A stretch of 64,000 nucleotides of DNA from Rhodoferax sp. Its GTDB lineage: Bacteria; Pseudomonadota; Gammaproteobacteria; Burkholderiales; Burkholderiaceae_C. The stretch lies in assembly GCA_008015235.1 (NCBI GenBank), contig SSFF01000003.1, forward strand, positions 1 to 64,000, read 5' to 3'. The notes under the pieces are model-generated. The model did not search any database. It saw nothing but the letters and a program-made list of their open reading frames with translations, and was not told the origin of the DNA. The position numbers and the translations under genes are program-made. Shown here piece after piece: positions 43,531-45,321 of this stretch; position 1 is the stretch's first letter, and each line of letters begins with the position of its first letter.

Positions 43531-44019
43531 TTAGGGCAGGGTGCGCAGAGCCTCCTGTAGGGTCTCGGCATCGACCGAGCGGGCTGCACCAAAACCCGCG
43601 ACTTGGCGCGCCTGCTGCAAATGCAGCGCCACAAAGCGGAAGTCGGGAAGCTGGGTCATCGGCTCCGCTTCGGGAAAGCGGTGCAGGTAGGCGGCGCGGC
43701 AGGCGGCGTACAGGGCGTGTTCAGGCGCCAGCGTCTCTGCCCGAGCACTGATGGTGACGCGCTGCAGCGCATGCACCGGCTCGCCCGCCACCTCGGCGCG
43801 CATGACCAGGGTCGACACGTCGGGGGCGCGCGCCATGTTGCCGGTGTGCGCCGCCAGGCCGCTCACGTGCAGCACCAATACCCCCGGTTCCAGCGCAATC
43901 GCATAGGGCACCATGGACACGAAAGGCAAACCCTGGGCATCGAGTGTGCCCAAGGCGGCCACGCGCTGGGTGTGCAGCAGGATGGCGAGTTCCAGCGTCA
44001 AACGGGGCGTATGGGCCAT
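43531..44019 (-). CDS. Pyridoxamine 5'-phosphate oxidase-like FMN protein
   Basis: 162 residues. Split-barrel fold with AILLHTQRVAALGTLDAQGLPFVSMV at the start (residues 10-36), VLVLHVSGLAAHTGNM, and a C-terminal PDFRFVALHLQQARQVAGFG, matching HugZ/PPOx-like proteins involved in haem or flavin chemistry. Actual substrate unknown. Downstream of a short hypothetical gene, 5 bases apart. Confidence 0.85.
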   Translation of the reverse strand: MAHTPRLTLELAILLHTQRVAALGTLDAQGLPFVSMVPYAIALEPGVLVLHVSGLAAHTGNMARAPDVSTLVMRAEVAGEPVHALQRVTISARAETLAPEHALYAACRAAYLHRFPEAEPMTQLPDFRFVALHLQQARQVAGFGAARSVDAETLQEALRTLP

Positions 44020-44024
44020 GGCCG

Positions 44025-44198
44025 TCAATCCCGCAGCGCGCGGTGGTAGCCGCGCAGGATCAGGTTGACGGTCTTGATGGGCAGGTTGCGGATGAAGCCC
44101 GGCACCCACGCCGGGGCGTTCATGGCAAAGCGGGCACTCCAGCGGGTGTAGGGGCGCAGCCATTGTGTGGCTCCGGCCATTTTTTGCTTGTCGATCAT
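44025..44198 (-). CDS. Small hypothetical protein
   Basis: 57 residues, MIDKQKMAGATQWLRPYTRW... with aromatic and basic residues (FIRNLPIKTVNLILRGYHRALRD). The stop is 5 bases before the PPOx-like start, so they would be one operon. The ribosome site is weak and an alternative ATG lies at 44207. Possibly a real small protein. Confidence 0.5.
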   Translation of the reverse strand: MIDKQKMAGATQWLRPYTRWSARFAMNAPAWVPGFIRNLPIKTVNLILRGYHRALRD

Positions 44199-44298: not shown

Positions 44299-44607
44299 AT
44301 GATGCGTGCACTCGCTGCCCTTGCCCTTTTTTTCAGCTTCGCCCTGCCCGTCCAGGCCAGCAAGGAGTTGGCCACTGCGTCCAACTGCATGGGCTGCCAT
44401 GCGCCTGACAAGAAACTGGTGGGCCCGTCCTACCAGGACATCGCCAAGAAATACGGGAGCCAGAAGGATGCAGCCAGCGCCCTGGCCAGCAGCATCAAGG
44501 CGGGCAGCACAGGCAAATGGGGTGCGGTGGCCATGCCCGCCAACCCGGCGTTGCCCCAGGACAAGGCACAGACCCTGGCGCAGTGGATTTTGAACGGCGC
44601 CAAGTAG
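44299..44607 (+). CDS. Class I cytochrome c
   Basis: 102 residues with a signal peptide (MMRALAALALFFSFALPVQA). One haem-binding CMGCH near residue 32 and a likely axial Met in GAVAMPANP near 78, so a c551/c5-type small periplasmic electron carrier. GGATCC-type spacing before the ATG. No oxidase gene adjoins. Its 3' side faces a candidate minus-strand RNA. Confidence 0.93.
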   Translation: MMRALAALALFFSFALPVQASKELATASNCMGCHAPDKKLVGPSYQDIAKKYGSQKDAASALASSIKAGSTGKWGAVAMPANPALPQDKAQTLAQWILNGAK

Positions 44608-44627
44608 TTGCCAACCGTGCGGGCCCG

Positions 44628-44756
44628 AAAACAAAACGTCCCCGTCTGCGGTAACAGTGCGGGGACGTGTGATTTGCCACCAACCGGCCGGTAAGACGGT
44701 GGTGCGCCGGGGAGAGCTTGTGGCCCTCCGGCAGGTTTGCTGTGATCAACAGATGG
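44628..44756 (-). ncRNA. Candidate small RNA, minus strand
   Basis: The 252-base gap between cytochrome c and Lrp genes reads on the minus strand as a complete small transcription unit. A TATACT -10 box lies at 44762-44767 (weak -35). Downstream are four successive stem-loops: CTGT/ACAG near 44750, GCCGG/CCGGC near 44733-44707, CCACC/GGTGG near 44704-44677, and a terminal 9-bp stem ACGTCCCCG/CGGGGACGT at 44636-44668 followed by TTTGTTTT. That last feature is a textbook intrinsic terminator only on this strand. No protein-coding frame is convincing. Family not recognised. Confidence 0.6.
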
Positions 44757-44859
44757 AAAGAAGTATAGGCCGGGGGGTGCGGCAGATGATTGCAAATATG
44801 GCTTTTAAATTTCTAAAATTGGCATAATCTGCTTTATTGATTGGCTTTTGGGGCATTGA

Positions 44860-45321
44860 ATGAATATAGATCGCTATGACCGGCAAATTCTGGAAATATT
44901 GCAGTCCGACGGCCGCATTGCCAACCAGGATCTGGCCGAGCGTATCGGCCTGTCGCCCTCCCCCTGCCTGCGTCGCGTGCGCGCGCTCGAAGAGGCCGGA
45001 CTGATCCAGGGCTACCGTGCCGTGCTCGACGCCAAGAAGCTGGGGCTCACCCTCATTGCGCTGATCCACATCTCCATGGACAAGCACACCCCCGAGCGTT
45101 TTGCCAACTTCGAAGCCACGGTCAGCGTGCTGCCCGAAGTGCTGGAATGCCTGCTGATCACCGGGCAGGACGCCGACTATCAGGTGAAAGTGGCGGTGCG
45201 CGACATGGACCACTACCAGGCACTGCTTCTCAACAAGATCACCCGCATCGAGGGGGTGACCGGCGTGCATTCCAGTTTTGTCCTGCGCCGGGTGGTCGAC
45301 AAGACTGCCTTGCCGGTCTGA
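44860..45321 (+). CDS. Lrp/AsnC-family transcriptional regulator
   Basis: 153 residues. HTH IANQDLAERIGLSPSPCLRRV in the first 45 residues, then an AsnC/RAM ligand-binding domain. The ATG at 44860 follows GGGGC; AT-rich sequence upstream (44780-44850) suits autoregulation. It is the second Lrp gene of the window, about 48% similar in style to that at 23471. The next gene (NRDE) starts 13 bases later. Confidence 0.92.
   Translation: MNIDRYDRQILEILQSDGRIANQDLAERIGLSPSPCLRRVRALEEAGLIQGYRAVLDAKKLGLTLIALIHISMDKHTPERFANFEATVSVLPEVLECLLITGQDADYQVKVAVRDMDHYQALLLNKITRIEGVTGVHSSFVLRRVVDKTALPV

Follow-up and report, generated by a model that had tools for sequence, protein, structure and literature searches.

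RNAs of the CsrB/RsmZ type titrate proteins and are built as a row of hairpins with a repeated loop sequence, the loops being of the GGA type. The closest described relative of the locus considered here is the little-studied Pseudomonas RNA P24 (RF00629), which is placed between PA3964 and PA3965, belongs to the core biofilm transcriptome of 77 isolates, where it is up with a log2 fold change of 3.6, and is tabulated beside other sRNAs in the transcriptome table (PMC6954232). For the same gap, sRNA10 (202 bp) is given as a prediction and marked as not validated (PMC4981712). PA3965 is counted among the nine Lrp/AsnC regulators of PAO1 (PMC8707732), and Cpx sites at -315 and -326 are given for it (PMC12802237), which indicates that other inputs exist there. 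The same source (PMC12802237) also mentions, beside the place of P24, a readthrough variant in which PA3963 is joined by part of PA3964. A search of open-licence papers found no function given for P24 and no literature linking P24 to its Lrp neighbour.

In the window, i.e. the whole stretch of 64,000 nucleotides from Rhodoferax sp. analysed here, the gap between a cytochrome c gene and an Lrp/AsnC-type gene (lrp) is very probably the site of a conserved small RNA gene that points away from lrp. A minus-strand sRNA gene in this gap had been proposed by a sequence-only reading, and our analysis supports that proposal as a whole. Taking all evidence together, we are fairly confident that this is a free-standing sRNA gene, the counterpart of P24 in the window's family, which lies divergent from the Lrp/AsnC-type gene and would act as a hairpin array in trans. 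The sequence-only reading contained neither the constant divergent lrp nor the relation to P24, nor an operator shared with leuA as the likely reason for the weak -35 element. The features of the locus are as follows:

43534-44022, minus strand: PPOX/HutZ-like gene; adjoins the sRNA in 16 of 31 loci, whereas here the cytochrome c gene lies between the two
44299-44607, plus strand: cytochrome c gene (Pfam PF00034), outside the system
44628-44767, minus strand: sRNA gene from -10 box to terminator (fold; found by a held-out model, E 1.9e-6)
about 44754 to 44628, minus strand: predicted transcript of about 127 nt, its start inferred from the -10 box
44628-44668, minus strand: intrinsic terminator hairpin and U run (sequence, fold; equivalent in 18 of 25 loci)
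44678-44704, minus strand: hairpin H3, loop UACC (fold; helices 4-6 of the 36-sequence alignment)
44705-44733, minus strand: hairpin H2, loop CACAA (fold; helices 2-3 of both covariation alignments)
44738-44751, minus strand: hairpin H1 (fold; helix 1 of both covariation alignments)
44762-44767, minus strand: -10 box TATACT (sequence; a box of this kind at corresponding distance from lrp in 24 of 31 loci)
44782-44803, minus strand: putative Lrp-type operator AGCCATATTTGCAATCATCTGC over the -35 region (22-base pattern; core in relatives)
44860-45321, plus strand: Lrp/AsnC-type regulator gene, divergent partner (Pfam PF01037, PF13412 and PF13404 above cut-offs)

Direct reading of the minus strand gives the TATACT box at 44767-44762, and at 44635-44628 a U run, UUUGUUUU, which follows directly on the terminator hairpin (44636-44668; outer stem 9 bp, inner stem 4 bp). 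Folding of 44620-44780 on this strand yields H1, H2, H3 and the terminator hairpin at -61.3 kcal/mol, with a z value of -3.24 that none of 200 shuffles matches; the plus-strand fold is ordinary (z -1.31; 25 of 200 shuffles as good). The box, the four stem-loops and the terminator that had been described are therefore all present, and the U run is indeed confined to the minus strand of 44628-44767. The earlier estimate of 125-130 nt for the transcript agrees with the length of about 127 nt predicted from a start near 44754. Scanning for consensus elements detected no promoter at the TATACT box. A weak -35 had already been remarked upon, and the putative operator covers the -35 region. The corresponding terminator scan also detected nothing at the 3' end of the sRNA; the probable cause is that it allows loops of at most 8 nt, while the outer stem encloses 15. 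A default Rfam scan of the 64-kb window gave no match.

A coding RNA was considered as well and discarded. Two minus-strand ORFs span the sRNA, both starting with TTG and running through the terminator, and 28 of 39 homologues lack any ORF of at least 12 amino acids; the other 11 hold one, among which no shared ORF is apparent by inspection.

For comparison with relatives, loci were collected via the adjacent Lrp-type protein, which has a match in 53 of the 61 genomes of the genus at E 1e-30. The closest named relatives of this protein come from Rhodoferax, which is probably the genus concerned. With loose variants of the -10 box allowed, 24 of 31 loci have a box-like sequence of the divergent promoter at a distance of 98-99 nt from where lrp begins. 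Counted from the beginning of the box, the end of a terminator is reached after 125-134 nt in 18 of 25 loci, the window being included in both counts. In an alignment of 20 sequences, two-sided changes occur at 20 of 33 pairs. Pairing is retained in 81.1% of the cells versus 70.4% in shuffles, and the covariation score of 0.335 compares with 0.175 after shuffling and is reached by none of 500 shuffles, a control that leaves the relatedness among the sequences in place. Sliding of the partners lowers pairing in the same alignment to 43.2% or less. When 36 sequences are aligned by model fitting, two-sided changes are seen at 30 of 33 pairs and in all seven helices. The compensating base changes in the stems of relatives, which the sequence-only reading had named as a check, are thus found, and box and terminator keep their places. 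The locus very probably encodes a free-standing, terminated sRNA, whose predicted structure is conserved with compensating changes.

Covariance models served to delimit its distribution. Models R1 and R2 were built with the window sequence, so that their matches in the window are no proof; model R3 was built without the window and without locus L003, and RNAalifold gave it 9 pairs only. In the 64 kb, R3 finds a single match, 44629-44767 on the minus strand (30.0 bits, E 1.9e-6). Of 349 genomes in the window's family, 23 have a match to R2, each a single copy; 11 of the 23 supplied model sequences and 12 did not. This count is a lower bound owing to strict filters; G217, for example, is counted as lacking the sRNA although it can be seen by eye in L019. 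At all 23 matches lrp is adjoining and divergent. Sequence similarity at the DNA level is weak by itself, with matches in 8 of 299 family genomes and a strong one in a single genome besides the own, and a plasmid search gave no match.

The lrp loci of the family number 64 (L003, L011-L040, L072-L104), of which 63 were run with R1, L031 having no upstream sequence. R1 matches 36 of the 64 at E 0.005 or better, 20 of these being R1 seeds and 16 not. Among the other 27 loci run, the sRNA is visible by eye at a score below threshold in L016, L018 and L019, and L021 has diverged. An amidotransferase gene abuts lrp in L015, L033 and L081, leuA is present in L100 and L104, and the content of L036, L040 and L102 is unclear. 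The sRNA is therefore not found beside every lrp. Among the best 80 named lrp loci, out of at least 595 relatives, R2 matches six at E 5e-7 or better (L108, L111, L113, L114, L117, L132), L155 at E 0.0014, and six more at E 0.08-1 (L112, L120, L123, L138, L163, L183).

Two other arrangements were seen upstream of lrp. In the gap that separates lrp from its next gene, thirteen loci (L075-L078, L080, L082-L084, L086, L087, L118, L130, L137) carry another conserved stretch, in which a TACATT box is mostly present. No R1 match was obtained in the first ten of them and no R2 match in the remaining three (L118, L130, L137); the stretch is possibly a strongly diverged form of the sRNA. In L085 and L088-L091 the same lrp is divergent from a gene that reads as infA-like, with no sRNA found by R1.

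Under permissive settings the P24 model matches the window at 44684-44827 on the minus strand (31.1 bits, E 8.6e-7; E 1.8e-6 in the whole-genome search), mostly and most strongly on the promoter side; the score lies below the Rfam gathering cut-off of 100 bits for P24. With filters that lose weak matches, the same model finds 1 of 120 genomes of the order, namely the own one, and 2 of 229 of the class. In the family of G634, which is taken as Pseudomonadaceae, P24 is found in 58 of 79 genomes, with 27 matches above the cut-off. Out of these 58 matches, 31 loci were examined (the 30 best and L041), and all 31 have a divergent lrp whose product is 59-64% identical to that of the window and which lies 55-65 nt from the 5' end of the P24 model. 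R1 matches 3 of the 31 on the P24 strand, with a common starting point in all three (best E 0.0041), and R2 matches none.

P24 thus shares with the window's sRNA the divergent position relative to a related Lrp-type gene, which was recognised here, a similar operator sequence and a terminator. Several hairpins with CA-N(1-3)-A loops are common to P24 and the window's family, the window itself having one such loop, the CACAA of H2. Differences also exist: the P24 model spans 255 positions, some of them promoter, in contrast to about 127 nt for the window RNA, and the commonest P24 loops are CAAUCA and CAACCA, whereas CACAA, CACCC and UACCC are found in the window's family. Judged by locus, architecture and a score below the cut-off, the sRNA can be described as a distant P24-like RNA rather than a formal member of that family.

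A clue to its regulation comes from the promoter region, for which a second match of 28 bases exists in the own genome (C39:116274), upstream of leuA, which lies on another contig than the sRNA. The 22-base pattern with 18 fixed positions, which was drawn up with the leuA site already known, has exactly two exact sites in the genome, the sRNA promoter and the site before leuA; three further sites carry 3 mismatches. It marks leuA in the own genome only, as relatives carry variants that are found with a shorter core, GCAATnnnCTG. Of the 15 leuA genes of the 73-79% subtype, 14 have this core at 77-96 nt ahead of the point where the leuA match begins, as against none of five of a second subtype and none of 14 of the P24-bearing family. 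It is accordingly present before 14 of the 34 leuA genes checked (of 36 matches) and missing before 20, while 9 of 43 genomes had no leuA match at the search threshold. The link to leuA is thus not universal, and the sRNA is kept without it.

Among the best 80 named lrp loci, out of at least 595 relatives, leuA is the close divergent neighbour of lrp in 63; L145 and L154 also have leuA, placed otherwise. In 14 of the 63 the distance between lrp and the leuA start exceeds 260 nt, so that a long leader could be accommodated. From this arrangement, the Lrp-type protein is most likely a regulator of leuA in many bacteria, and the sRNA promoter would most likely be one of its targets here. The putative operator probably replaces the missing -35 element.

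The long leuA leaders, which stem mostly from gammaproteobacteria, occupy the same position divergent from lrp and show the same loop type as the sRNA. In minimum-energy hairpins, CA-N(1-3)-A loops account for 32 of 135 hairpins in 39 RNAs of the window's family (2.0 in shuffles), 64 of 160 in 31 P24 RNAs (2.2 in shuffles) and 20 of 68 in the 14 long leuA leaders (0.8 in shuffles), but for none of 63 in short leuA leaders (1.1 in shuffles; control of 24 of 49 loci). These figures are descriptive, since the motif was picked by eye before counting and the sequences within each set are related. The letters of the loops vary, the type of loop is kept. With E values up to 10 admitted, R1 hits 8 of the 14 long leaders, mostly weakly and significantly only in L155 (2.6e-4), and none of 14 short-leader loci (of 49); Rfam gave no match at E 0.1 in the 8 of 14 long leaders tried. 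The long leaders lie in cis with leuA, whereas the window sRNA ends at its terminator and has leuA on another contig. A search of open-licence papers found no literature linking leuA to such a long leader.

These results suggest a mechanism in which the Lrp-type regulator would bind the putative operator in place of a -35 element and switch the sRNA, jointly with leuA where leuA carries the operator, the leucine status being the probable signal. The sRNA would then present its C-A-N(1-3)-A hairpin loops in trans to a partner, either a protein or a class of RNAs, which is the least certain step. Some other proteobacteria may carry such an array in cis, as leader of leuA. The row of hairpins with a repeated loop type is reminiscent of CsrB/RsmZ, although the loops here are not of the GGA type.

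Whether the RNA is independent of its neighbours deserves consideration because of the gene order. A common order in the genus is amidotransferase (plus strand), PPOX (minus), sRNA (minus) and lrp (plus), often followed by a TANGO2-like gene (plus). A short ORF (44025-44189, minus strand) and the cytochrome c gene stand between PPOX and the sRNA only in the genome of the window (31 and 23 loci compared), an apparent insertion. That both neighbours of the gap are on the plus strand, as the sequence-only reading had argued, is correct for the window, but PPOX comes next on the sRNA's own strand in 16 of 31 loci, and the possibility of a leader therefore had to be tested. In those loci PPOX starts soon after the terminator, as it should if the RNA were not independent but a leader (attenuator) of PPOX. 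We regard this as improbable, because the sRNA is kept in eight loci where PPOX does not adjoin (L017, L020, L022-L024, L027, L028, L038) and in the window, where the plus-strand cytochrome c gene intervenes. Outside the genus, tblastn places PPOX in only one of 21 sRNA loci of about 3 kb (L251) and lrp in all 21, so that no downstream gene on the same strand is constant and a cis leader was rejected. The hairpin also sits just past the cytochrome c stop codon, and might be the terminator or 3' end element of that gene, or the gap might consist of DNA sites only, with no functional RNA. Such explanations are very improbable: only the minus strand has the U run, tblastn finds cytochrome c beside the sRNA in 1 of 31 and 1 of 23 loci, both being the window's own genome, and all seven helices show two-sided changes. 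The earlier claim that the element does not belong to the cytochrome c gene is consistent with this.

If the RNA is a free-standing sRNA, the mode of action can be conceived in two ways. A docking or titration function of the loops is the one we favour, tentatively and at slightly less than even chances, over plain base pairing, because the loops keep their type despite changing letters and a comparison in 15 genomes gave no antisense match to leuA. A classical base-pairing sRNA, acting on mRNAs through linkers or loops, would have the same identity and a different mechanism; its typical size and its free-standing, terminated form speak for it, as does the listing of P24 beside other sRNAs in the transcriptome table (PMC6954232). 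It appears somewhat less probable than docking, since varying letters within a constant loop type speak against it, and complementarity to leuA does not exceed shuffles. Duplex energies, calculated by a method that ignores the RNAs' own folds, were not better than those of shuffles in 15 genomes (mean z 0.37; 1 of 15 below -2), and an antisense RNA to leuA was discarded on these grounds.

Docking of the loops also fits a wider and equally tentative picture, which we hold with somewhat more doubt than belief. One old module, in which an Lrp-type regulator controls an array of hairpins with C-A-N(1-3)-A loops and the loops dock an RNA-binding partner, may exist in three guises: as leuA leader in some gammaproteobacteria, as P24 in the Pseudomonas family and as sRNA in the window's family. 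If so, P24 would be part of leucine control. The tie of P24 and the window sRNA to one Lrp-type regulator and to leuA provides a testable physiological setting for both. It would also mean that an sRNA can share its locus with an mRNA leader and perhaps derive from one. The recurrence of one loop type is a hint of an RNA-binding partner so far unrecognised.

Further short reading frames were noticed upstream of leuA. Second-subtype leuA genes of the window's family (L243, L274, L275) can have a short leucine-rich ORF ahead of them (MKTLFAFALLLLGEPRVR, MNTFALVLLLIPSGRRR, MNIFALALLLIPFGRRW) and lack the operator core. In the P24-bearing family, 12 of 14 leuA genes (L234, L236, L238-L242, L244-L248) are preceded by a short leucine-rich ORF, e.g. 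MKTAHTLILLRQHACLRLVSPRLRG, which is probably a leader peptide.
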